From Bacteroidota bacterium (GTDB taxonomy: Bacteria; Bacteroidota; Ignavibacteria; UBA10030; BY39), in contig JAUXOG010000038.1 of NCBI GenBank assembly GCA_030682385.1, forward strand, positions 1-46,937: DNA of 46,937 nt. Direction: 5' to 3'. The notes beneath the pieces were generated by a model. The model had not been told where the DNA came from and did no database searches. It saw only the letters and a list, made by a program, of their open reading frames with translations. The translations under genes and the position numbers were made by a program. The first letter of the stretch is position 1, and each line of letters opens with the position of its first letter. This document shows positions 3,267 to 38,698 of this stretch, one piece after another.

Positions 3267-3304
3267 AAAAAAGGCCGTCCTGCTGAACTGCCTTTTCTTT
3301 TTTA
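3267..3304 (-). terminator. Rho-independent terminator after ahcY
   Basis: Read on the minus strand, AAAAGGC (3296-3290) can pair with GCCTTTT (3275-3269) around a 14-base loop, followed by a run of T. It lies about 30 bases beyond the ahcY stop codon. The flanks are A-rich on one side and T-rich on the other, so it could also stop transcription on the plus strand. Confidence 0.65.
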
Positions 3305-3330
3305 AAGCAAATTAATATTTTCTCAGCCGG

Positions 3331-12090: not shown

Positions 12091-13611
12091 TCATTTTAGA
12101 AATACTGCCTTTCCTACCGAAGTAAAATTTCCTTGGACAATCCTGTAAAAATAAATTCCGCTTGCCAGCACTTGCCCTGAGCCGCCGTCCTGAGCGGAGC
12201 CGAAGGATGTCGAAGGGTCCCATTCTACCTCATGCTTGCCTGTTTCTAATTTTTCGTTTACTAACACTGCTACTTCCCTTCCAAAGATGTCGTACACCTT
12301 CAGCGACGTGAAACCTGAAACCTGTAACCTAAAGCCAATCTTTGTCTTTGGATTAAAGGGATTCGGGTAATTCTGCGCCAATATGAACGTGTTCTTAGGC
12401 AGCTCCCATTCTTGAACACTTGTGGGAAGTAATTCCGCACGACGGTAAAGTAACTTGTCAGGCCCAACCTGTGCAGCAGATGTTCCTACAAAGTGGACAG
12501 AATTTCCAATCAATACAGATGAAGACGCAAGACCTGTGTTATTACTGTCGTAGACTTCACAGACAGTGGACCACGTTGTGCCTCCGTCAACCGAGAATCG
12601 AAAGTTAGCACGGGCGTTAAGATCGTTCACCCAAAGTATGTTAATATGCTTTTCTCTTATTGATATATTGGGGTTATACCCATTTGGCCGCTCCGTCAAC
12701 AGATATTCGTTCGTCCATCGCCCAATATCATCAAGGTGCCTTTCCATCACACTGCATCCAACGAGTGCCTCGCAGCCGTATTTTGCGTCTCTCCATGCCG
12801 CCACAATTTTCCCTGTAGTTGGGTCTGCGGCAATCTTCGAATCTGCAGTAAAACTACCGCCACGCACAGTTGATAAATTGATGGAATCCGACCATGTCTC
12901 TCCTAAATCGGTGCTGACTTTGTATTGAATAACATATTCTGCATTGTGTCCCGATGAATCATAAAGCCAACGTGTAATGCGGTAAAGTTTTCCCGGAACA
13001 TATGCAATGTCAGGACTATTTCTCTGGGCTATCGGACCCAGCAGTGTCCATGTTTTTCCTGCATCCGTTGTCCGCAAAATGCCGTGAATGTTGCCTGTCC
13101 CCTGATAACGATTAACTCCTAACAGAATCGTATCCTCTATTCCAGCCCGATACCAAGCGGTATATGCCATTGAATCCATGACCATTCGAGGTGTGGTCCA
13201 ATTCAAGCCTTGGTCTGTACTTTTCATCATATACAGAATGTTTTTTACTGCATCTCTCCAGAAAGCATAGAGTGTCGTTCGGGTATGAACAAGCACACAT
13301 GATGAGACAATATTGATAGTAGTATCACGAACAAGTTCTCTCAATGTCTCGAATGTTCTTCCGCCATCCACAGAGCGTATGTAAGGATATTTTATGCCGC
13401 TGTCGTTTGTGAGCATGGTAATATGCAGCGTGTCCCCTTGGTTTACAATAATGGGGAATCCAGCATCAATGTTATCCGGCGTCAACTGCCACACCGGTCC
13501 CCAGATCAGTCCGCAGCTTGTATCTATGCGGTTGTCGTAAATGTGCTGGGCAGTGCAGAGCGTAATGCTCATCAGTCCAAGAAATAGTATGTACTGTAAT
13601 CGTTGTGTCAT
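12091..13611 (-). CDS. Exported sialidase-like BNR repeat protein with sorting domain
   Basis: A 506-residue protein with a signal peptide ending near LCTAQ. At least five Asp-box (BNR) motifs of the S-x-D-x-G-x-x-W/F type follow (SVDGGRTF, STDQGLNW, TTDAGKTW, STDLGETW, SVDGGTTW), predicting a sialidase-type beta-propeller. The C-terminus from about residue 407 is a type IX sorting domain (NYPNPFNP, LKVYDIFGREV, ASGIYFYR). Residues about 465-480 are encoded by an in-frame repeat (12175-12219) not seen in the sister proteins here. The start at 13611 follows AAGGAG. A catalytic sialidase arginine triad is not obvious, so enzyme activity is uncertain. It lies upstream of the 931-residue propeller protein. 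Confidence 0.78.
   Translation of the reverse strand: MTQRLQYILFLGLMSITLCTAQHIYDNRIDTSCGLIWGPVWQLTPDNIDAGFPIIVNQGDTLHITMLTNDSGIKYPYIRSVDGGRTFETLRELVRDTTINIVSSCVLVHTRTTLYAFWRDAVKNILYMMKSTDQGLNWTTPRMVMDSMAYTAWYRAGIEDTILLGVNRYQGTGNIHGILRTTDAGKTWTLLGPIAQRNSPDIAYVPGKLYRITRWLYDSSGHNAEYVIQYKVSTDLGETWSDSINLSTVRGGSFTADSKIAADPTTGKIVAAWRDAKYGCEALVGCSVMERHLDDIGRWTNEYLLTERPNGYNPNISIREKHINILWVNDLNARANFRFSVDGGTTWSTVCEVYDSNNTGLASSSVLIGNSVHFVGTSAAQVGPDKLLYRRAELLPTSVQEWELPKNTFILAQNYPNPFNPKTKIGFRLQVSGFTSLKVYDIFGREVAVLVNEKLETGKHEVEWDPSTSFGSAQDGGSGQVLASGIYFYRIVQGNFTSVGKAVFLK
12175..12219. repeat. Dispersed repeat inside a sorting-domain coding region
   Basis: The stretch reads, on the minus strand, GACCCTTCGACATCC, then TTCGGCTCCGCTCAGG and further bases, which is a repeat type often seen between genes. 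Here it is in frame and codes for the residues STSFGSAQDGGSGQ, extending a loop of the sorting domain compared with the other copies in the window. Confidence 0.6.
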
Positions 13612-13701
13612 AGTAAACTCCTTGTATTTTTTATGTTGTTGTTTATGGTTGTTATTCTGCCTCGAATAATAAAATATTTTATTAGTAATGTATCTTGCTT
13701 G

Positions 13702-13761
13702 CCTGTCCCGACCTTGTCGGGATGCTGCGCACCTGTCCCGACCTTGTCGGGATGCGACGCA
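13702..13761. repeat. Two tandem 30-bp hairpin repeats
   Basis: Two back-to-back 30-bp units (13702-13731 and 13732-13761) share the first 24 bases, beginning CCTGTCCCGACCTTGTCGGG. Each contains the hairpin CCCGAC-CTT-GTCGGG. They lie upstream of the gene starting at 13611. An 84-codon open frame across them has no family signature and is not called a gene. Confidence 0.75.
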
Positions 13762-14141
13762 CTTATGATTTGAAGAGGGATAAAATGTTTGAACTGAAGA
13801 ACGTGTTCAATATAAAACTGCTTTACCAATTTTGAAATCTCCATTTTATTATTAAATATCAATGTTAATGCCCATTACTAATTGGCTGAAGTAACTGCAA
13901 GAATGTAAATTTAAATCGACTGATAGTCAAGTATTTTTCTAAAAATATCGTGTTTTTTGAGCAAATATTTTTATACTATACACCGAATTCAGGCTGTTTT
14001 AGAGGTATTAGTTAATCCCTACTGTCGAAATAAAATTCTGACCTACAAAACAGAATATTCGATCCATCCGTTAGCTAACGAACTGAATCGACTCCTTTAC
14101 TCCTTATAAAATATTACTAAATTCCATAAATCAATAAAGTA
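13762..14141. other. Non-coding stretch with a palindromic repeat copy
   Basis: About 380 AT-rich bases without a credible gene. The only structure seen is at 14061-14095, where GATCCATCCGTTAGCTAACG and its flank match the hairpin repeat at 8895-8927 with small changes that weaken the outer stem. The promoter for the gene at 13611 probably lies in the left part of this gap. Confidence 0.5.
14061..14095. repeat. Diverged copy of the GTTAGCTAAC hairpin repeat
   Basis: The core TCCGTTAGCTAACGAA is one base away from the perfect palindrome. The flanks GATCCA and CTGAATCGACTC correspond to GATCCA and CTGAATCGGCTC of the copy at 8889-8927. It sits in the intergenic gap next to the LtaS-like gene. 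Confidence 0.65.
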
Positions 14142-16097
14142 TCACTCTGATTTATAAACCTTGTTACTCCTGAGTAAGTATGTTGAAACCTGTAGATATG
14201 ATAACATTTCCTTCCTCAAAACGTTAGCAGTGTTCGGATTCAGATTCAATTTATTCTCACTCAAATGTCTATCGGTTTTATAATTATATAATGCAATATT
14301 TTTGTCGAAATCGCCCACTGACAGCCAATCTCCTTTAATCCAGCCGTGCAAACCGCCGCTCGGGAGGTAGGCAAAGCCATTGTTCCCGGCAATTGCCGAT
14401 AATCCAAACGATGAGTGTTTTGTTTGCAATTTCAATATATCAATAATCGTGGGGAGAATATCTACTTGACTGTGAACAGAAGAAATAATGTCCGGATTTA
14501 AAAATGCAGGTGAATAAAGTAAACAAGGAATCTTGAAAAGTTCATAAATATTTTTTTCTCTTGTCCCCTCAGCATGATCCGCGGTTATAATAAAGAGTGT
14601 ATTCCGAAAATATTCTGCCTTCTCCGCTTCTTCAAAAAATTTGCCTAAACTCCAATCCGAATATCTTAATGAATTTAAAAATTTGTAATTGGCAATAGTC
14701 GAATCGTAAACTTCATATTCTCCCGACGGCAGTGCATAGGGTGCGTGCGATGAAAGCGACATCACTAAACCTAAAAACGGTTGCTTTATTTTATTAAATT
14801 CTTGATTCGACCTCTCGAATACGAAATGATCGAATATTCCCCACGTCCCGTCGTCTTTTACTTTGTTCAAATCGAAATCAGATTTTGAAATGTAAGTATC
14901 AAACCCCGCCAATTTAGAAAATGCCTCGAAGCCCATCGAACCGGAACGCGCACCGTGAAGAAAAATCGTGCTGTAACCACCCTCTTTTAGTATCACACCT
15001 AAAGGTCGTAGAAAATTTTGCTCAATCGGGCTTCCCAATATATCGTCGTAAACAACATTTGGAATTGAGCCGACAACTGCCTGCATCCCTTGAATTGTTC
15101 TTTGTCCTGCTGCAAAGAAATTCGAGAAGTAAATACCTTTGTTCATCAGTTTTCGAAACTCGGGCATCGGAAAAGGTTTGATTGTTTCGAGTTCGGCAAA
15201 ATTTCCGGGCCAACTTTCCATTACTATGATTACGACATTCAGCTTGTTTTGGTGTTTAGTTTCAGGAAGTGTTTGCCTCATCAATGGATATTCTTCATCC
15301 AAATAAATTTCTTTCGGACTTTTTAGTAAATCTCTCATCGATTTTATGGCTTCATTCATCGGAATAAAATTATAAGATTGAATATCCCCTCTGTTCAAAG
15401 TCCGTAATGTTGTAAAGACGGCATTCAACGAGAGATGCCCTAAAGCAATATTATCGTTTCTGAAAGCATAACTTTCGCGAAGTGGCTTCAACTGGAAGCC
15501 GCCCCGTATTGAAATAACTATCACACCAATCAATAAAATAAAATAGATTAAATCGTTGACAATTCCTTTGTAAGAGGAGCTTTTATATTTTCCAAAAAGT
15601 TTAAACCATAAATATCCAAGCAAGATAACTACTGCAACTGCAATAATTAAAGGGACGAGATAATCGTTAAGAATAATCGTTATTAATTCGGGAATCGATT
15701 TAAAAAGATTAAAAATTTCATACGAGATTCTACGTTTTGCGTAGGGATAATAGAAAATATCTCCCAGCGATAATATGATAGATGCAATCACTACAAGAAA
15801 CAACAAACTTATTATTGAAATTTTATAAAAGCGTTTGAATTTAAATCTACCCGGTAAATTAAGAAGCAGCAAAAACAATCCACCCACCAACAGCGTTGAA
15901 GCTAAATCAAAACGTAAGCCGATTAGAAACGATAACCCGATCTCACTAATCGGAACACCATAAAACTGCGGCGAGTAAAGAACGTAAAATACAAACCGAA
16001 GCAGCGTGAAAATAAACATCATTAAAAGCAATACCTTCACCGAGAGGATGATATTTTGATGTGGCAATAAATTATCGTAACTGAATTTATTTTTCAT
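14142..16097 (-). CDS. LtaS-like sulfatase-fold membrane phosphotransferase
   Basis: Predicted inner-membrane protein with about five N-terminal transmembrane helices followed by an extracytoplasmic alkaline-phosphatase/sulfatase-fold domain. Visible elements are VVIIVMESWPGN (metal ligand), the QRTIQG segment where the nucleophilic threonine would lie, and FIITADHAEG (metal-binding D-H pair). In this family, members move glycerol-phosphate, phosphoethanolamine or similar groups onto envelope polymers. In a Gram-negative host the product is not predictable. The start at ATG 16097 (MKNKFSYD) is preferred because it leaves an 11-base gap to the upstream stop. The longer frame from 16133 would overlap that gene by 25 bases. 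It is the second gene of an envelope operon behind the glycosyltransferase. Confidence 0.83.
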   Translation of the reverse strand: MKNKFSYDNLLPHQNIILSVKVLLLMMFIFTLLRFVFYVLYSPQFYGVPISEIGLSFLIGLRFDLASTLLVGGLFLLLLNLPGRFKFKRFYKISIISLLFLVVIASIILSLGDIFYYPYAKRRISYEIFNLFKSIPELITIILNDYLVPLIIAVAVVILLGYLWFKLFGKYKSSSYKGIVNDLIYFILLIGVIVISIRGGFQLKPLRESYAFRNDNIALGHLSLNAVFTTLRTLNRGDIQSYNFIPMNEAIKSMRDLLKSPKEIYLDEEYPLMRQTLPETKHQNKLNVVIIVMESWPGNFAELETIKPFPMPEFRKLMNKGIYFSNFFAAGQRTIQGMQAVVGSIPNVVYDDILGSPIEQNFLRPLGVILKEGGYSTIFLHGARSGSMGFEAFSKLAGFDTYISKSDFDLNKVKDDGTWGIFDHFVFERSNQEFNKIKQPFLGLVMSLSSHAPYALPSGEYEVYDSTIANYKFLNSLRYSDWSLGKFFEEAEKAEYFRNTLFIITADHAEGTREKNIYELFKIPCLLYSPAFLNPDIISSVHSQVDILPTIIDILKLQTKHSSFGLSAIAGNNGFAYLPSGGLHGWIKGDWLSVGDFDKNIALYNYKTDRHLSENKLNLNPNTANVLRKEMLSYLQVSTYLLRSNKVYKSE

Positions 16098-16108
16098 TTC
16101 AATAAGTT

Positions 16109-17572
16109 TTAATAAATTTTGAAGACATAACATGTCCGCGATTTGTTGAACTTTGGATTCAATTTATGAGCTATGAGATCTCCAATACTCGGTTCGATAG
16201 TTTTTTCTAAAACAAATTTTCTCTCCATTATTTTTTCTAAATAATTTTTGTCTTGTTCCAACGAGTCAGTATATAATACACAGTAGTTGATTATCATTTC
16301 TTGTTGTTGCAGTTTCTTTTTATCATCAATGATATGAATAGGAATTGTTTTCCCAAGATAGTAATCGGGCACCAAAAATGTATAACTGAATTGAGCAATT
16401 AAAACACCGGCAGCATCCTGTTTATCATTTATGTAAACGAGCGGTTCGACGCGGTCTTTCTTCCCGTAATGGAAAATAAAAAACATCAATAAAATTGAAT
16501 TCAGCACCCAAAAGTAAATCCAGTTGTATTTATAAATTTTTGACAGATTTTTTTTCTGAAACCACTGTTTCAAATTATTAAATCCTGCGACAGCTAAAAT
16601 TATTAACATCGGAATAATTGGAAGTAAGAACCTCTCCTGCTTGTTTTCGATTACACTGTGAGCAATCAGAAAAGCCAATATCGAAAGACCGATGATAATA
16701 AATTTCTTGCTTCCCCTTAACGCCGAAATAAGAAACAGAATTGAGAAGGGTGGTATGAACGCAGCTAAAAGTGTTAGCAGGTATCTTGATGGCGGTCCGG
16801 CAGGATAACCATCGGATTTTATGATGCTGTTATAATCGCTTAATATAAAACCGTAATTTTGGGAAAATGAGTAACCGAATTCTCCGTTCACATATAAATT
16901 ACTCAGCGACTGCAAGAAAATAATTACAAGAAACCCGAATAGAAATAAGAACGAAAGCTTGCGGCTGCTTTTATCGATTACTACCCCAAGAAGAAACGGA
17001 ACCACAAACGAGATAAGCGGAAACCGAAGGATAAGTGCAACGCCGATGAATAGACCCGATAAAAATAAGTAGAGATTTATATTTTCCTTTTCAAAGCGAA
17101 TAAAATACCATACCGACGCAAGCAAAGGAATTTGACAAATTACTTCCTCAAATTGATGAACTGAAAAAATCGGCATAACGAAAAACGCAGCCATAAAAAT
17201 TCCGCCGATTGCAGCACTTCGTTTATCCACTTTAGCTTCTAAAATTTTAAAGACGAGATAAATTCCGACTACTGAAAATAAACCGTGCGCCAATCTAACA
17301 AAGACCATTTCGGTATCAGGAGAATTTATACCGAAGACCCGCACGATTTGCATAATGAGCGATACGATGAAAGGATACAACGCCGAATCTTTAAAATCTG
17401 CGGGCAGCGATAATCCACTTGCAAGCAAATCAGCATCAACTACCAAATTGTGATGGTCGTCGAGAGTAAGAAATCCTTTGCTAAAAAAGGAAGCAAGAAT
17501 ACGCAAAATAATCCCGAAAATAATCAGAATAACAAGTGGATATTTTTCAAAAAGTCTTTTCATTTCAAGCAT
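16109..17572 (-). CDS. GT-C fold polytopic glycosyltransferase (family 39/22-like)
   Basis: A 487-residue protein with roughly ten hydrophobic segments. It shows two features of GT-C enzymes that use lipid-linked sugars: an acidic pair in the first extracytoplasmic loop (LTLDDHHN, about residues 36-43) and the NKQERFLLP segment resembling the HKE-RF-P motif of Alg9-like and PMT-like transferases. It would act in the inner membrane on the periplasmic side. The acceptor is unknown. It precedes the LtaS-like gene and diverges from a family 2 glycosyltransferase, so the cluster looks devoted to surface-polymer modification. Confidence 0.78.
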   Translation of the reverse strand: MLEMKRLFEKYPLVILIIFGIILRILASFFSKGFLTLDDHHNLVVDADLLASGLSLPADFKDSALYPFIVSLIMQIVRVFGINSPDTEMVFVRLAHGLFSVVGIYLVFKILEAKVDKRSAAIGGIFMAAFFVMPIFSVHQFEEVICQIPLLASVWYFIRFEKENINLYLFLSGLFIGVALILRFPLISFVVPFLLGVVIDKSSRKLSFLFLFGFLVIIFLQSLSNLYVNGEFGYSFSQNYGFILSDYNSIIKSDGYPAGPPSRYLLTLLAAFIPPFSILFLISALRGSKKFIIIGLSILAFLIAHSVIENKQERFLLPIIPMLIILAVAGFNNLKQWFQKKNLSKIYKYNWIYFWVLNSILLMFFIFHYGKKDRVEPLVYINDKQDAAGVLIAQFSYTFLVPDYYLGKTIPIHIIDDKKKLQQQEMIINYCVLYTDSLEQDKNYLEKIMERKFVLEKTIEPSIGDLIAHKLNPKFNKSRTCYVFKIY

Positions 17573-18488: not shown

Positions 18489-19190
18489 TTATTTTAAAAA
18501 CATCATCTTCTTCCGTGCCGTGGTTGTTTTGCTTCTTTCATCTTTAGCAGTAATCTGGTAAAAATATATACCGCTGGAGTAATTAGTTCCCTGCCCGTCT
18601 ACACCGTTCAGGCGGGCATCAATTTCTACCTGATGGTAACCGGCTTCTTTCATCTCATCTACGAGTGTTACTACTTCTCTACCTAATACATCGAATACCT
18701 TCAGCGTTACCCAACTAGCCCCGACTGCTGTCGGGGGCGACTGCCAACTGATAACTGTTGACGGGTTGAACGGATTCGGATAGTTCTGATATAACTCAAA
18801 CCTTTCAGGCGGTGTTACTACGATTTTTACTTGCTTCGTCCATACTTCTCCTGATGGCGTTGAGATAGTAAATGATACCGACTCTTCTTTATTTACAACC
18901 GCCGACTTATCAACCGAAAAACTAAACTCAGCACTATTTTCTCCATTCGATGCAATCGCATCAATTGTTTTCTGCTTGGATTTAAAATTCATCCAGGATG
19001 GCGCATCGATAACGTTTATCTTGATACCCGATAAAGATTGCTCCGATATATTTTGTACAGATAATTCTATAACATTACCGGATGATAAGAACGGAACTCG
19101 ATGAATTTGTTCTCCTCCATCTGTATTTTCTTGTGAGTACAAAATTACTTCCAAAACAAGAATCAATATAAGCGACGTAAATAATTTCAT
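18489..19190 (-). CDS. Small exported protein with a type IX sorting domain
   Basis: A 233-residue protein with a signal peptide ending near LYSQ, a single beta-sandwich-like module (about 35-125) resembling Ig-like or CARDB-type domains, and a full sorting domain with YPNPFNP (137-143). The domain contains two in-frame hairpin repeats, coding residues about 151-159 and 191-203. The start follows AAAGGAG. It is the last gene of a three-gene operon, 29 bases behind a 687-residue protein that lacks its own sorting domain. It has its own signal peptide, so the two are not a frameshift-split gene. No enzyme motif is present. Confidence 0.75.
   Translation of the reverse strand: MKLFTSLILILVLEVILYSQENTDGGEQIHRVPFLSSGNVIELSVQNISEQSLSGIKINVIDAPSWMNFKSKQKTIDAIASNGENSAEFSFSVDKSAVVNKEESVSFTISTPSGEVWTKQVKIVVTPPERFELYQNYPNPFNPSTVISWQSPPTAVGASWVTLKVFDVLGREVVTLVDEMKEAGYHQVEIDARLNGVDGQGTNYSSGIYFYQITAKDERSKTTTARKKMMFLK
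18592..18618. repeat. In-frame hairpin repeat in a sorting domain (copy 1)
   Basis: TGCCCG (18592-18597) pairs with CGGGCA (18613-18618). The stretch codes in frame for part of DARLNGVDGQG in the sorting domain of the 18489-19190 gene, a loop about eight residues longer than in the 931-residue protein. Confidence 0.55.
18718..18737. repeat. In-frame hairpin repeat in a sorting domain (copy 2)
   Basis: GCCCCGAC and GTCGGGGG form a stem around a four-base loop. In frame it codes for residues SPPTAVGA between the first two strands of the sorting domain, making that loop about four residues longer than in the sister proteins. The CCCGAC/GTCGGG stem is the same as in the tandem repeats at 13702-13761. 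Confidence 0.55.
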
Positions 19191-19219: not shown

Positions 19220-21283
19220 TTATCGTAGATTATTTTCACAAGGACCGGGCAGTACTGCCTGTGCCTCGATTTGTATATTCCCTTTTATTCTTTCATCTAA
19301 TTCGATTGAACCTTTACCTGTTAATTTTAGCGGGTTGCCTGTTGGTTTTAGCAACCAGTATTCAACACCGTTGCCTGCAATTATGTCCCAATTTATTTTC
19401 AACGGATATTTTGCATTCTTTACTTTTACAGATATTTTCCGTTTTACTTTATCAGGTGGTATGCTTTCGATATATTTTCCTGATTGATTTCGGACGTTAA
19501 ATATTCCTTCTAATTGTTCAGGTGGGAGTTCTTCTGCATAACTCAACTTTTTACTGATTAACCTGCCGCCGTTTCGCACATATAAATTTTGTCTTTTACC
19601 TTCTGCATCAGCAACTGAAAATTGGTCTAATGCAGATAACTCCTCAACTTCAGGACAGGGTTCAAATAATGTCTTCCCTCTCGTTTTAAAATTCCGGACA
19701 TTCGACCAATCACTTGTTCCGTTTGTATTCGTTGCACTTACTCGCCAGTAATACGTTATGCCGCCATACAATGGACCTATTTGCTTCGTTTCTGTTGTTA
19801 TGTTTGCATCATTAATTAATAAACAAGTGAAGTTAAAGTTGGTTGATACCTGTAAATGATATGTTCCAGCGCTATGCACCTCGATCCAGCTTAAAGTTGG
19901 AGTGATAGATATATTAGTTGAGCCATTCGCTGGCAATTGAAGCACCGGTTTATTGGGTATGCCGGGAGCTTGAGCGGTGGGGTGTTCGTTAAAGTTGGGA
20001 TATGCACCGCTTACTGAATAATTTGAATTCAATATTAAGTTTCCGTTCCCATTTACTTTTATCCAATATCCTTTTCCCGGTTGTAATATGGTATCAATGG
20101 TATATCCTTGTGTGCTATAACCATAGAATTTTGATGTTAATGAGGTTGTACTGTCGGCTCTGACTTTTGAATGATGAAGTGCAGATGATACAGACCCAAT
20201 CATATTCCAGCCGTTTTTAACCGGGACTCGTAATGAATCGATTTTCATTCCTTTATAATTAACTATTTGGTTTGAATTCATTTTTATCCAGTAGCCCTCA
20301 CCATTTTTGAGTGTTGTCCTTTTGATGTAGATGGTTTCATAAGTATAAATTGGTGATTGCATATTTGGATATATAGCTGAATCCGAAAAATTTTGGATAT
20401 AATTTGGGACGCTGACCATATTCCATCCAATGTTTATAGGTGAAGCTATTGCTATAGTACCTGGCATATTATCGATTAAATATTCAGTATTAAATTTTAT
20501 TAGCGCGTAAGCTTCGCTTGATAGTAAGCCGCTGCTGTCGCGCTTAACATGTGCAATTACGGTATCAAGTGTAAAGCGTGCCGACCAGTTGCGGTTTTGC
20601 TGTATCTGAACTTTTGCTGTATCAAAAAATGTTAAATATTTATTTCCTGTTGTTTGATTCGCAATCCAACCGAGCGACAGTGATTGCGTTGTGTAGGATT
20701 TGAGTGTGTCGAGAAAAATTAAACTGTTGAAGGGAGAGGGTGGATTTGTTGGAGCGATTGTTTTTCCTTTGAAACTATTTTCAAAAATATCGTCTCCATA
20801 TGTGATATCAGGAGTATTTCCATATTCAAACTCTGGTTCGGGGAAATAGCCCCTAATATAAAATGTAAAAACCGACGGCAGACCTGGACTTAATAAACTA
20901 TAGTATTTTAATTCTTGACTTGGCTTTATGATGTATAAAGTATCTTCTGCAAACCACATTATTGAGCGTCTCGTATCAGAAAATAAAGAAAACCAATTAA
21001 TTGGGCTATTTACAATAATAATATTTGAGTTATAATCAATAAAAAAACTCTCAGCACTTTGTTGACTATTTAAATTATTGAATAATTGGTAATTGAATAA
21101 GTAACCATTTTTTATTCTTAATACATTACTTTTTACACTTACTGTTATATTAGATGCCGATGGAAAAGTATAAATCCACAAAGAATCTTCTTGTGTATAT
21201 ATTATACTAGGAATTAAAAACAACAACCATAAAAATAAGGTCATTCTTTTTATTGAGTGTTTTCTTTTAAGCAAATTTTTCAT
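19220..21283 (-). CDS. Large exported protein with GWNM-type repeats and an Fn3 domain
   Basis: A 687-residue protein with a signal peptide (Arg/Lys-rich start, hydrophobic core to about residue 31). Two related modules lie in the middle: GWNMVSVP with EGYWIKMN, and GWNMIGSV with KGYWIKVN, each ending in a G-Y-W-I-K strand. A fibronectin III-like domain follows at 443-535 and then a roughly 150-residue C-terminal region. No YPNPFNP sorting domain is present, unlike the neighbours. The start follows AAGGAGAAATAGGG, a good ribosome binding site that overlaps the upstream stop by spacing (2-base gap). It is the middle gene of the operon. The function is unknown; adhesion or a structural surface role is a guess. 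Confidence 0.72.
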   Translation of the reverse strand: MKNLLKRKHSIKRMTLFLWLLFLIPSIIYTQEDSLWIYTFPSASNITVSVKSNVLRIKNGYLFNYQLFNNLNSQQSAESFFIDYNSNIIIVNSPINWFSLFSDTRRSIMWFAEDTLYIIKPSQELKYYSLLSPGLPSVFTFYIRGYFPEPEFEYGNTPDITYGDDIFENSFKGKTIAPTNPPSPFNSLIFLDTLKSYTTQSLSLGWIANQTTGNKYLTFFDTAKVQIQQNRNWSARFTLDTVIAHVKRDSSGLLSSEAYALIKFNTEYLIDNMPGTIAIASPINIGWNMVSVPNYIQNFSDSAIYPNMQSPIYTYETIYIKRTTLKNGEGYWIKMNSNQIVNYKGMKIDSLRVPVKNGWNMIGSVSSALHHSKVRADSTTSLTSKFYGYSTQGYTIDTILQPGKGYWIKVNGNGNLILNSNYSVSGAYPNFNEHPTAQAPGIPNKPVLQLPANGSTNISITPTLSWIEVHSAGTYHLQVSTNFNFTCLLINDANITTETKQIGPLYGGITYYWRVSATNTNGTSDWSNVRNFKTRGKTLFEPCPEVEELSALDQFSVADAEGKRQNLYVRNGGRLISKKLSYAEELPPEQLEGIFNVRNQSGKYIESIPPDKVKRKISVKVKNAKYPLKINWDIIAGNGVEYWLLKPTGNPLKLTGKGSIELDERIKGNIQIEAQAVLPGPCENNLR

Positions 21284-21285
21284 CC

Positions 21286-22683
21286 CTATTTCTCCTTTAC
21301 ATAAATATGAAAATGTGGTGGATTCGCCTCATATTTAGGTTTAATTCCAGTTTTACTAAATATTGTTGCTTTCAGTTTGATTTTATTAACTTCAATGCAA
21401 GAATCTTGAGCATTAAGACCTTTAATTCCTATATCGGTATTTATACCTTTTCTATGTTCTTTATGGCTACCACTCCAATTATTTCCAATATCAAATCTTC
21501 CTCCAAATTTTAAACTCATATCATTAATTCGCAATCTAATCCCGGGATATAATGAATCATAAGCAGCAGCAATTTTTGGTATAGCTTCAATTAGGTTCTG
21601 TGTCCCATAGTGGTTATCATAATGCTTAGAAGTAGAAGTATTGCACGGGTCAAAATCATCTGGTGCACCTATTAAAACATATTTATCACCAGTGGGAATT
21701 GAATACAGCGAATCAACTTTAACTTTAATTCTTAACGTATCAAAACTTGTTGTGTCACTTAATAACTTTGCAGTTATTTTTTCAATTCCTCCAAACTGTG
21801 AAGCTAAATATCCAAATTTCAATACACCAGTAGAATCTGTTTTTCTTGTGAATGTACTTACAGTATCATAGCCCGAAGCAGGTGGTAACTTTGGAACGCG
21901 ATATTTACCCATAGGCCTGTTTCCATTATGTGAATGACCTCCGCTATCGGCAATCGCAGCCGTGTCAACTTTCACCCAAACATTTTTCATCAACGAATCT
22001 CCAAACGTTGCTTTTAGCTCTAAATCTATCCAGTTCCTTCTTGATAAATTATCGTTATATCTTGTAATATTTGGGCATATACTATCAGATGCCGGTTTAG
22101 TAAATTTTAACACTGTATCTGCTACACCTACAAAAATATTTAAAATTTCTTCCTGACAAGTGTAAGGTGCATAAAAAGTGACATTCCAACCATATTGTGT
22201 TGTATCTGCCGAATAAATTCCAAGCGTATCCATTGTTCCATCTATAGGATGTAAGTCAGTAACATATACAAACACAACAGTATCACCTCGTTGTACAGGA
22301 ACCGCTGAAAAAGGCGTATAAGGATAAGAAATATAATAGTTATATCTTAAAGTTTGAACACCGTAACAATTCCAGTAGTTAGAAGATGTATCATTAAAAC
22401 GTGGTACAACAAGATCGGTTAAAACCGTATCGCCGTTTCTTATATCTAAATATACATGGCTATTAAACGGTATCGGACTTTTATCCCTGTGTGCAAACGA
22501 ATGCCATATTTGTAGTACACCTCTTTTCTTCATTACAAAACCAGATACAATTCCTTCTGTTCCTTCTTGTCTAATGATATTGATATTTTGTAATGATTGT
22601 TGAGGATTTATTACAACTTTTTCCTTTATCCTCACCTGTGCCTTCAGCACCTGTGTAATAAACAGATCGCTAAAGAATAGCAT
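21286..22683 (-). CDS. Exported protein with a predicted LAS-type metallopeptidase domain
   Basis: A 465-residue frame from the internal ATG. The C-terminus carries H407, H410, D417 (H-x6-D) and H457-F-H459 (HxH). That arrangement matches the zinc ligands of LAS-type peptidases (M15/M74, cell-wall peptide hydrolases) and is preceded by a GGRFDIGNN segment. The first 350 residues are beta-rich and unrecognised. The ATG at 22683 has no ribosome binding site and gives a signal peptide without a basic start. In-frame codons continue upstream to a TAG through a (CT)9 tract. A GTG at 22748 with AGGA before it would join this frame if the tract lost one CT unit, giving 486 residues with a classic signal peptide. 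As read, that start is out of frame. It is the first gene of the operon. Confidence 0.7.
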   Translation of the reverse strand: MLFFSDLFITQVLKAQVRIKEKVVINPQQSLQNINIIRQEGTEGIVSGFVMKKRGVLQIWHSFAHRDKSPIPFNSHVYLDIRNGDTVLTDLVVPRFNDTSSNYWNCYGVQTLRYNYYISYPYTPFSAVPVQRGDTVVFVYVTDLHPIDGTMDTLGIYSADTTQYGWNVTFYAPYTCQEEILNIFVGVADTVLKFTKPASDSICPNITRYNDNLSRRNWIDLELKATFGDSLMKNVWVKVDTAAIADSGGHSHNGNRPMGKYRVPKLPPASGYDTVSTFTRKTDSTGVLKFGYLASQFGGIEKITAKLLSDTTSFDTLRIKVKVDSLYSIPTGDKYVLIGAPDDFDPCNTSTSKHYDNHYGTQNLIEAIPKIAAAYDSLYPGIRLRINDMSLKFGGRFDIGNNWSGSHKEHRKGINTDIGIKGLNAQDSCIEVNKIKLKATIFSKTGIKPKYEANPPHFHIYVKEK

Positions 22684-22713: not shown

Positions 22714-22731
22714 AGAGAGAGAGAGAGAGAG
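22714..22731. repeat. (CT)9 dinucleotide tract in the 5' coding region
   Basis: Nine AG units on the plus strand (CT on the minus strand) lie between the GTG at 22748 and the body of the metallopeptidase gene. With nine units, translation from the GTG stops after 18 codons. With eight or eleven units it runs into the main frame. Tracts of this kind are typical of slipped-strand phase variation. Confidence 0.8.
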
Positions 22732-22772
22732 TGTTTTCTATGTTTCACAATAATAAATCCTATTTATTTACT

Positions 22773-22889
22773 GAAGTTACGCAGAATCGACTTTTTGTCA
22801 TGTTGAGCGAAGCGAAACATCTAAAAACAGCTCAAAATTGAGGTTTAAGATTCTTCACTTCGTTCAGAATGACTGTTCTGCGTAACTTC
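22773..22889. mobile_element. 117-bp palindromic MITE-like element, copy 1
   Basis: The element is bounded by perfect 14-bp terminal inverted repeats GAAGTTACGCAGAA and TTCTGCGTAACTTC. The inner arms are also imperfect complements: GTCATGTTGAGCGAAGCG on one side, and on the other the complement of GTCATTCTGAACGAAGTG. The whole unit can therefore fold into one long hairpin. It carries no gene. A second copy of the same length at 36844-36960 differs at about two positions. It lies in the gap behind the ABC transporter and upstream of the metallopeptidase operon. Confidence 0.85.
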
Positions 22890-23138
22890 AGTTATTTATT
22901 AAATTACGAATGTCGAATTACGAATAAAGAATATAAAAAACCAAAAACTCTGTGTGCATTATAGGAAAATATTTTGTAAGTGTCAAGGATTATTTTCTAA
23001 AAAATGTTTTATAAACTTGTAAATCCTCTGTTCCCCTTCCTCGTCATTCGGAGTTCAAGATTCGATATTCAATTTTTTTTCCGAGTCACCGGCTCACCAA
23101 TTCCCCCATCCACCGTTTCGTCGCCTCCCCTTATCTCC
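22890..23138. other. Non-coding stretch downstream of the ABC transporter gene
   Basis: About 250 bases without a gene, terminator hairpin or clear repeat beyond short TTACGAAT-type direct repeats near 22913-22930. The right part is pyrimidine-rich on the plus strand. I see nothing else in it. Confidence 0.4.
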
Positions 23139-36818: not shown

Positions 36819-36843
36819 ATCGTTTATAAGTTATTTAATATTT

Positions 36844-36960
36844 GAAGTTACGCAGAATCGACTTTTTGTCATGTTGAGCGAAGCGAAACATCTAAAAATA
36901 GCTCGAAATTGAGGTTTAAGATTCTTCACTTCGTTCAGAATGACTGTTCTGCGTAACTTC
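36844..36960. mobile_element. 117-bp palindromic MITE-like element, copy 2
   Basis: Same length and terminal repeats as the copy at 22773-22889, differing at about two internal positions (a C/T and an A/G change near 36899 and 36905). It fills most of the gap between polX and the LiaF-like gene. Its right end overlaps the last two bases of the polX stop codon (TGA, 36961-36959), so the element supplies that stop. The long hairpin could act as a transcription terminator for polX. Confidence 0.85.
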
Positions 36961-38698
36961 AGTTAATATTTAAGTATTTAGTAATTTCCTTGAGCGTGCC
37001 GGTATTTATAACATCCGATTTTTCGAGCCATCCTTTGCGTGCAATTCCAACTCCGTAAAAAACGTCCGTCAAACTATTTATGTTATGCGCATCCGGGTTT
37101 ATCGCGATTTTTACACCTGTCTCTTTTGCGAACTTGCACAATCTCCAGTCAAGGTCGAGCCGCAACGGGTGTGCGTTAATTTCAACAACTTTTCCGAAAT
37201 CGGATGCTGCTTTAATTATTTCAAGCATATTCACAGGATAAGGTTCGCGCTCGAGCAGCAATCTTCCGGTCGGATGAGCAAGCATTGTAACATATTTATT
37301 TTTCATACCTTTTATAATCCGCTTGGTCATATCTTTTTCCGGCATATTAAATTTAGTATGAATTGCACAAATAACAAAATCAAACAGTTCTAAAATTTTA
37401 TCGGAAAAATCTAAACTTCCGTCGGGAAGAATATCAACCTCAATCCCTTTCAATATACGAAAATTTTTGTAAGATTTGTTCAAGTCATCAATTTCTTTTA
37501 GTTGATGCTTAACCTTGCTTTCATCAAGCCCGCCGGCATAAGCTGCCGATTTGCTATGTTCGGCGATTCCAAGATATTCCCAACCCAACTTTTGCGAAGC
37601 TTCAGCCATTTCGGCAAGTGTGTTGAAACCGTCGCTGTATTTTGTATGGCAGTGAAAAGTGCCCCGGATATCTTTTTCTTCTATCAAGTTTGGAAGTTTA
37701 TTGTTTGCCGCAGCTTCAAGTTCTCCGAAATTTTCACGTAATTCGGGGAGAACGAATTCAAGTCCGAGTGTTTTATAAATTTCCGATTCGGTTTTACATT
37801 TTATTTTTTGTTTTGCTTTGCCTCGTGTTTCTTCAGCTCCAAGTTCAGAGAAACCGTATTCATTCAAACTCAAACCAAATTTTTTTGAGAGTGAGCGCAT
37901 TTCCACATTGTGCTCTTTGCTTCCAGTGAAATAAGCAAGGGCAAACGGAAATTCTGCTTCACTTACTACACGCAAATCGCAGTGGATCCCGTTTTTCAGG
38001 ATAACGCTCAATTTTGTTTCACCTTTTGCAGCAACTTCAGCGACATCAGGATGTTTTACGAAAGCATCCATTATTTTGGTTGCATCTTTTGCACTTACAA
38101 GAATATCAATATCTCCGATAATCTCTTTCTTACGCCGCAGGCTTCCGGCTAATTCAATTTGGATAACGGATTTTAGATTTTTCAACTCACTGATTATTTT
38201 ATCAGCAGATTCTTTTGCTACAGGATATAGAAATTTGTCGGCATGTTTTTTTAGCTGCTCGATACCTTTTAAAATATTCACTTCTATTTTTTCGCCGAAC
38301 CCTTCGAGTTTCTCAAGCTGTTTCTTTTCAGCAGCTTCCTTTAGTTTCTCGATAGATGTGATGTTCAGTTTGTCGTATAAAACTTTGATTCGCTTTGGAC
38401 CTAATCCCGGTATCCGAAGCATGTCGAGCAATCCTGATGGAAGCGAATTTTTTAACTCTTCATAATATTTTAGTTTACCGGTAGTGATAAGCTCTTTTAA
38501 CTTTTCAGTTAATCCTTCACCGATTCCTTTTACTTTTTTAATCTCACCACTCTCGATTAACACTTTCAATTCCGTTGTGAGAGCAGCAACAACACGTGAA
38601 GCATTATGGTATGCACGGCACTTGAAGGGATTTTCACCCTTTAACTCAAGCAGTGTTCCGATTTCTTCCAATATTTCAGCGATTTGTTTGTTATCCAT
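36959..38698 (-). CDS. polX: DNA polymerase X family with PHP domain
   Basis: A 579-residue repair polymerase with a 3'-5' exonuclease. In order: an N-terminal 8-kDa-like domain with helix-hairpin-helix motifs (KGIGEGL about 57-63, IPGLGPKRI about 96-104), the pol-beta palm (GSLRRKK at 185-191, catalytic D196 and D198, third acidic residue D241), and a C-terminal PHP domain starting with TFHCHTKYSD (H349, H351) and ending in INPDAH. This is the standard bacterial PolX layout and length. Its stop codon lies in the 117-bp mobile element, so the last residues (LNIN) may have been altered by the insertion. Confidence 0.95.
   Translation of the reverse strand: MDNKQIAEILEEIGTLLELKGENPFKCRAYHNASRVVAALTTELKVLIESGEIKKVKGIGEGLTEKLKELITTGKLKYYEELKNSLPSGLLDMLRIPGLGPKRIKVLYDKLNITSIEKLKEAAEKKQLEKLEGFGEKIEVNILKGIEQLKKHADKFLYPVAKESADKIISELKNLKSVIQIELAGSLRRKKEIIGDIDILVSAKDATKIMDAFVKHPDVAEVAAKGETKLSVILKNGIHCDLRVVSEAEFPFALAYFTGSKEHNVEMRSLSKKFGLSLNEYGFSELGAEETRGKAKQKIKCKTESEIYKTLGLEFVLPELRENFGELEAAANNKLPNLIEEKDIRGTFHCHTKYSDGFNTLAEMAEASQKLGWEYLGIAEHSKSAAYAGGLDESKVKHQLKEIDDLNKSYKNFRILKGIEVDILPDGSLDFSDKILELFDFVICAIHTKFNMPEKDMTKRIIKGMKNKYVTMLAHPTGRLLLEREPYPVNMLEIIKAASDFGKVVEINAHPLRLDLDWRLCKFAKETGVKIAINPDAHNINSLTDVFYGVGIARKGWLEKSDVINTGTLKEITKYLNIN

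Follow-up and report, generated by a model that had tools for sequence, protein, structure and literature searches.

The open reading frame between positions 21286 and 22683 of contig JAUXOG010000038.1 (assembly GCA_030682385.1, a Bacteroidota bacterium of the class Ignavibacteria) raises two questions: what kind of exported protein ends in a LAS-type metallopeptidase signature, and is its production switched on and off? We analysed the whole stretch of 46,937 nucleotides that carries this frame, referred to below as the window, together with related genomes. The frame itself is called gene 1.

MepA-Like Domain at the C-Terminus of Gene 1

The initial annotation placed in this interval an exported protein with H407/H410, D417 and H457-x-H459 at its extreme C-terminus. 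The ORF listing gives a frame of 465 aa at 21286–22683 on the minus strand, and the plus strand contains many stops across the same interval; the claimed ORF is thus present, on the minus strand. All five residues were found at the positions claimed in the translation. In a seven-row alignment of homologues, the other rows of which are 21–82% identical to window gene 1, no row departs from H407, H410, D417 or H457, and six rows retain H459, the exception being the G023 protein. This conservation argues that the motif is more than a chance occurrence.

When aligned with E. coli MepA (family M74; PDB 1tzp/1u10), the five residues of gene 1 match MepA H110, H113, D120, H209 and H211, so that H-x-x-H-x6-D and H-x-H correspond one for one. 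The hhalign comparison of the gene 1 family with MepA (probability 91, E 1e-6) covers the part up to H-x-x-H-x6-D, and in a MAFFT alignment the C-terminal H-x-H of the window protein coincides with MepA H209/H211. A profile built from the seven homologues retrieved MepA first among PDB sequences (E 0.0077), with one unrelated second match; the gene 1 sequence used singly retrieved nothing from PDB. In scans of the window protein, the sole family listed by Pfam was M74 (E 0.0066, 16.5 bits against a cut-off of 25) and the sole family listed by NCBIfam was the MepA model (E 0.0024, 17.4 against a cut-off of 272); gene 1 was not reported when the Pfam M74 model was scanned over the genome. Several relatives gave comparable matches: L002 to M74 in Pfam (E 0.00045), G009 to M74/MepA in Pfam and NCBIfam (E 0.002 and 0.026), and G017 and G039 to the NCBIfam MepA model (E 1.7e-5 and 0.0011). 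The G013 protein matched weakly in Pfam (E 0.13) and had no NCBIfam match, and a 105-residue piece of the G039 protein had no match in Pfam.

Window gene 1 thus possesses the M74 metal residues (H-x6-D and the C-terminal histidine of H-x-H) and falls below the curated family cut-offs in both Pfam and NCBIfam, for which reason we call it MepA-like rather than a member of M74. Besides the two motifs, the proteins have in common the order of helices and strands ahead of the motif and the fact that both are exported; they differ in that the stretch between the two motifs is far shorter in gene 1, and in that its domain ends a long, Ig-like exported protein inside what looks like a switchable cassette. 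Judged by its sequence, the C-terminal domain is a remote relative of M74 (MepA), and it is most likely a putative zinc peptidoglycan endopeptidase. The LAS-type signature proposed at the C-terminus is therefore upheld and can be narrowed to the MepA/M74 kind. AlphaFold models of the C-terminal pair of domains and of the full-length protein, built from three input sequences, had mean pLDDT values of 37.5 and 31.5, too low for them to bear out either the beta-rich character ascribed to the protein or the geometry of the five residues.

In the protein as listed, the MepA/M74-like domain (residues ~350–465) is preceded by an Ig-like domain (~205–345), which aligns with homologues and bears an invariant GGHxH. 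The first ~350 residues were said to belong to no known family. This holds as far as scans of Pfam, NCBIfam, PHROGs and PADLOC go, none of which gave a family match there, but residues ~205–345 form a domain common to the homologues, and the signal peptide is followed at once by a motif that recurs in other proteins of the kind described below. When 245 genomes sampled from the class were searched with a profile of the two C-terminal domains, 17 had a match, which in some cases covers only one domain; viral contigs contained one distant relative of the domain (L100). The PHROGs and PADLOC scans, the latter of which covered five proteins, returned no match.

A CT Tract in the Leader of Gene 1

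Upstream of gene 1, at 22958–22986 on the minus strand, a consensus scan found a promoter-like site, TTGACA-17-TATAAT, that agrees with the consensus at 12 of 12 bases. The scan yielded two sites in the window against a mean of 1.4 in shuffled sequence, the other site having only 9 of 12 bases. Closer to the gene, a GTG at 22746–22748 (minus strand) follows an AGGA by ~10 bases, and the frame test also favours it, while the listed ATG at 22683 falls among the signal-peptide codons. Gene 1 probably starts at GTG 22748 rather than at ATG 22683.

A palindromic, MITE-like repeat element (22764–22898, minus strand; fold z −7.7) lies between the promoter-like site and this start. It occurs in at least 39 other places of the same genome at E ≤ 1e-36 (40 of 112 candidates were scored), with a further copy at window positions 36832–36973, and is absent from the corresponding leaders of genome G001, a sister species and the other genome of the genus compared. 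The element may affect expression of the genes downstream.

Within the signal-peptide codons, at 22714–22731 on the minus strand, there is a (CT)9 tract. Shuffling the window 100 times never produced such a tract, and it is the only place with seven or more CT units in the assembly of 3,383,374 bases. Translation from the GTG through nine units gives an 18-residue peptide and leaves the body of the gene out of frame; with 5, 8 or 11 units the full protein is obtained, the leader of which, VKHRKH...SLSAGFRLTIIFLMLFFSDLFITQVLKAQ, appears by eye to be a signal peptide. The body frame has a stop 6 bases before the tract and no start codon in between. The assembled state is thus OFF. Lying in the 5′ part of the coding sequence and having a unit that is not a multiple of three, the tract has the properties of a simple-repeat switch, and we propose that it works by strand slippage. 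The possible switch that had been suspected at this locus would then be a repeat-length one, seated in the leader.

CT Leaders in Related Genomes

Genome G001 contains five CT leaders. One (C32) is on the homologue of window gene 1, two on contig C104 precede a long protein (C104:40, or C104a; 892 aa as listed) and a shorter one (C104:5906, or C104b; 431 aa as listed), and contigs C4 and C121 end inside the tract. The full promoter-like element is seen upstream of the C32, C121 and C4 leaders; it is partly masked at C104:5906, and the contig at C104:40 begins after it. In a second family, four genera (G040, G044, G032 and G024) have one tract each, again in the leader of an exported gene. The same arrangement is therefore found, with different leaders, in six genomes of two families.

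The eight readable loci have 6 to 10 CT units, and seven of them are out of frame: the window, C32, C104a, C104b, G040 C9, G044 and G032 lack a body-frame ATG or GTG in the 40 bases leading up to the tract. The eighth, G024 (n = 6), has such a start and is in frame. The excess of OFF states is not significant, since random phase alone predicts two of three; it fits chance phase and is also compatible with some dead gene copies or an unseen rule. The bodies are open for 422–998 codons in the seven loci not cut by a contig end and for 231 codons up to the contig end in C32. The leaders of G024, (CT)6, and G040 C9, (CT)7, agree at 16 of 20 bases before the tract and 33 of 40 after it. Since the likeness is limited to 49 of 60 bases and the enzymes encoded behind these leaders are of different types, the in-frame G024 and the out-of-frame G040 C9 do not represent one gene in two states; tract lengths here are compared only between species or paralogues.

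The idea that CT tracts are simply common in these organisms was rejected, (CT)≥7 being found in only 11 of 98 genomes of the order. Nine of the 17 distinct tracts in these genomes are in signal-peptide leaders directly after the start codon (the window, the five of G001, two of which are cut by contig ends, and those of G040, G044 and G032). Three precede, or lie close to the start of, other genes for exported proteins that by eye look T9SS-sorted or repeat-rich (two in G018, one on G059 C150), and the remaining five (G059 C131, G036, G081, G057, where the tract is inside an ORF, and G021) are elsewhere or unclear. The 20 genomes of the two nearest families hold 10 further exact (CT)6 places, nine of them outside leaders and one being the leader of G024. 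The leader pattern had no exact match in viral contigs. As for homologues free of a tract, five of six (G040 C12, G017, G039, G009 and G023) offer an ATG in frame ahead of the motif that follows the leader, and the sixth, G013, has only TTG or GTG available.

Other sites were noted as well. On G013 C21 (L129, ~3300–3330), a (C)9 run occupies the spacer of a promoter-like site before an M74-like gene and is a possible promoter-spacer switch, as a single case. G018 has two (CT)13 tracts (C17, L095, and C43, L096) between a TTGACA-type promoter-like site and the gene start, i.e., in the 5′ untranslated part, possibly a second mode of repeat control; the two genes are similar, exported and FG-GAP-like, with ends that by eye resemble sorting domains. 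The CT leader on G001 C121 (L047, 2100–2315) starts just behind a sulfatase-type gene that corresponds to window positions 14142–16133. The counterpart of this site in the window, 13611–14142, has no CT leader, and next to it is a BNR-repeat gene (12091–13611) with a weak sorting domain.

Cassettes with Exchangeable Enzyme Ends

Two minus-strand genes follow gene 1. Gene 2 (19220–21283, 687 aa), which starts 3 bases after the end of gene 1, encodes an exported partner with a weak Fn3-like match; both of its Pfam matches, fn3 (E 0.6) and Ig_Rha78A_N (E 0.0084), are under the cut-off. Gene 3 (18489–19190, 233 aa) has a C-terminal T9SS sorting domain, TIGR04183, that is above the NCBIfam cut-off and misses the Pfam one; Pfam found the sorting domain in all seven further gene 3 proteins scanned, in six above the cut-off. 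The genome encodes the T9SS protein SprA. The tight row of a weakly Fn3-like gene and a sorting-domain gene corresponds to what the initial annotation described. The surface location that it gave the gene 1 product was not borne out by the scans: with Pfam and NCBIfam, neither of the first two window genes showed a T9SS C-terminal sorting domain, only gene 3 having one.

The order gene 1, gene 2, gene 3 is found in the window, G040 C12, G032, G044, G017, G009, G023 and G024. Gene 3 looks cut short in G001 C104a and G040 C9, and at G001 C104b, G013, G039 and C32 the contig ends before the cassette does. Cassettes stand in tandem in G001 C104, G009 and G023. In the first cassette of G001 C104 (L045, 5500–5560), gene 3 breaks inside the sorting domain and continues in another frame.

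Directly after the leader, 14 of 14 gene 1 proteins compared have the motif [AGTP]Q[VI]xI[KR][ED], which was read by eye first and then located by script, so that it is a description rather than the outcome of a blind search. Their C-termini are of three types: M74-like, SLT-like (ES/ET...SYGxxQ, a pattern that we take to resemble lytic transglycosylases) and HExxH. The SLT-like and HExxH proteins gave no meaningful PDB match with profiles and no Pfam or NCBIfam family, and these two names are therefore motif readings by eye. Gene 1 proteins thus combine a common N-terminus with exchangeable C-terminal enzyme types, the general pattern of polymorphic toxins. In G023 (C40, L133, 14550–15293, minus strand), a C39-peptidase-like end (HWVLITG...IIDPG, by eye) precedes a gene-2/gene-3 pair and is possibly a fourth enzyme type.

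The partner varies with the enzyme. Gene 2 is large and modular (270–1040 residues); in SLT-like cassettes it has an extra N-terminal part of ~255 residues (three of three, 46–50% identity), in HExxH cassettes a different N-terminal part (three of three, 35–53% identity), and in M74-type cassettes neither. At a partial HExxH-like locus of G009, recognized by eye, the similarity of gene 2 to the HExxH partners begins only at the linker part. A profile of the gene 2 module was considered as a counter of cassettes and dropped, the module looking common.

Selection and Possible Exchange

Comparison of window gene 1 with the G001 C32 homologue (240 codons) gave dN 0.089 and dS 0.342, and with G040 C12 (465 codons) dN 0.146 and dS 0.840, i.e., dN/dS of ~0.17–0.26. 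For a neighbouring ABC transporter, dN was 0.013 at dS 0.341. It follows that the body of gene 1 is under purifying selection and changes faster than its neighbour; this applies to the M74-type gene, the SLT-like and HExxH pairs being too diverged for the measurement. Genes 2 and 3 of the window and G040 are near saturation (dS ~2.5). Since gene 1 is so much closer than its partners, it seems to have moved on its own between the two families, a comparison in which only cassette genes of G040 were used.

Proposed Mechanism and Alternatives

We consider it likely that the locus represents slipped-strand phase variation of a polymorphic exported-enzyme cassette, in which gene 1 ends in a domain distantly related to MepA. 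The evidence for this is read from DNA: the motif match, the tract, the reading frames, one relative in frame and one out of frame with similar leaders on different bodies, and purifying selection on the window gene. According to this model, gene 1 would encode a phase-variable exported protein with a C-terminus like that of a zinc peptidoglycan endopeptidase. Slipped-strand mispairing would add or remove a CT unit and so bring the body into or out of frame with the start codon, (CT)9 of the window being OFF and 5, 8 or 11 units ON. In the OFF state, translation would stop after 18 codons, and polarity may also lower expression of genes 2 and 3. In the ON state, a wall-directed enzyme would be exported along with its partner and the T9SS-sorted protein. 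A cassette would accordingly consist of a switchable exported enzyme, a partner whose N-terminal part suits the enzyme type and, usually, a T9SS-sorted protein, with enzyme ends and leaders being exchanged between cassettes.

What the switched protein acts on can be read in two ways. An ON cassette may be a weapon, in which the exchangeable enzyme at the C-terminus is directed at the wall or the proteins of other cells, gene 2 protects or chaperones, and gene 3 anchors or carries the enzyme via the T9SS; we regard this as a real possibility, somewhat short of an even chance. It would account for exchangeable C-terminal types behind a common N-terminal motif, for the N-terminal part of gene 2 that goes with the enzyme type in three of three SLT-like and three of three HExxH cassettes, for tandem cassettes, and for a gene 1 that is closer between families than genes 2 and 3, as if exchanged alone. 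It fits less well with the size of gene 2, usual immunity proteins being far smaller than 270–1040 residues, with the G009 locus where the gene 2 match begins only at the linker, and with the lack of a PADLOC match in the five proteins scanned; the route by which gene 1, which has no T9SS domain of its own, leaves the cell is also left unexplained.

Alternatively, the switch may be real and its target the cell itself. Genes 1–3 would then build or trim a variable coat or wall of their own cell, the M74-like domain being a remodelling enzyme or a structural leftover; we hold this to be possible, though rather doubtful. MepA acts on the wall of the cell that makes it, genes 1 and 2 contain repeats of the Ig, Fn3 and InlB types, and one homologue lacks a metal histidine, all of which suits such a role, but the motif residues are retained in most rows of the alignment and variation is concentrated in the enzyme-like ends. 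Taken together, exchangeable C-termini, type-matched partners and the separate exchange of gene 1 make us lean towards an enzyme that acts against other cells rather than on the wall of its own.

Could there be no switch at all? The tract might be a sequencing or assembly error, or the gene might be dead with a body that is still open. In favour of this are the seven out-of-frame tracts among the eight that can be read, the two G001 contigs that stop within a tract, a kind of sequence that short-read assembly handles poorly, and the truncated look of gene 3 in G001 C104 and G040 C9. This is nevertheless unlikely: the arrangement recurs with different leaders in six genomes of two families, dN/dS of the window gene is ~0.17–0.26, G024 is in frame, and an in-frame ATG start is available in five of six homologues without a tract. 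More improbable still is that the tract plays no part and the gene is expressed constitutively from the internal ATG 22683: that codon is the mechanical start of the ORF, and C32 and C104b likewise have an in-frame ATG inside the leader, but starting there would leave MLFFSDLFITQVLKAQ without a charged start, and in C104a, G040 C9, G044 and G032 the leader offers no ATG in frame on the way from the tract to the body.

Relation to Known Systems

Phase variation of the proposed kind resembles that of H. pylori oipA, where, according to the available text of PMC10564699, an exported protein has CT repeats among its signal-peptide codons and the length of the repeat tract sets the frame. The present genes, by comparison with the oipA described there, belong to another phylum and encode exported enzymes instead of an outer-membrane protein; the CT leader is common to several different genes, and variation in its length is known from comparison between species and paralogues.

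In architecture, the closest systems are the TANFOR polymorphic toxins of Bacteroidetes, described in the available text of PMC7073777 as having a common N-terminus, an exchangeable C-terminal domain and a downstream partner, with T9SS-sorted and Fn3 neighbours as here. The toxin domains named there are mostly nucleases and others that act inside cells, and the word “phase” is absent from that paper. The TANFOR domain itself (TIGR02542) had no match in 11 gene 1 proteins, nor at gene 1 in a genome scan, whose two matches, both weak (E 0.05 and 0.16), fell elsewhere.

The open-licence literature gave no result for Ignavibacteria together with phase variation, and the combination of a switch with an exported-enzyme cassette was not found in print among the open-licence matches listed. 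The type of switch is already known, and the enzyme is distantly related to an established family; what appears to be new, judging from what was found in print, is their combination here.

Among the matches listed, repeat-driven phase variation is mostly that of host-adapted pathogens (Neisseria, Haemophilus, Campylobacter and Helicobacter); in the present case, the genes affected would encode exported enzymes of an uncultured lineage, and the pattern recurs with different leaders. For such genes, there is a risk of wrong-start annotation, as the listed ORF conceals the true signal peptide. Tentatively, and with some doubt, we suggest that bacteria of an uncultured FCB-group order, which have no known host, carry a repertoire of phase-variable, mix-and-match effector cassettes that amounts to a bet-hedged weapons system. 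If this is true, CT-repeat leaders pass between genes for peptidoglycan peptidases, transglycosylase-like proteins and HExxH proteins, and each enzyme would come with its own matched partner, while a surface protein sorted by the T9SS would serve in its delivery or in protection. Which secreted enzymes merit random switching would become testable by counting CT units in metagenomic reads, and a clonal population would hold cells with different sets of wall-directed enzymes ON.
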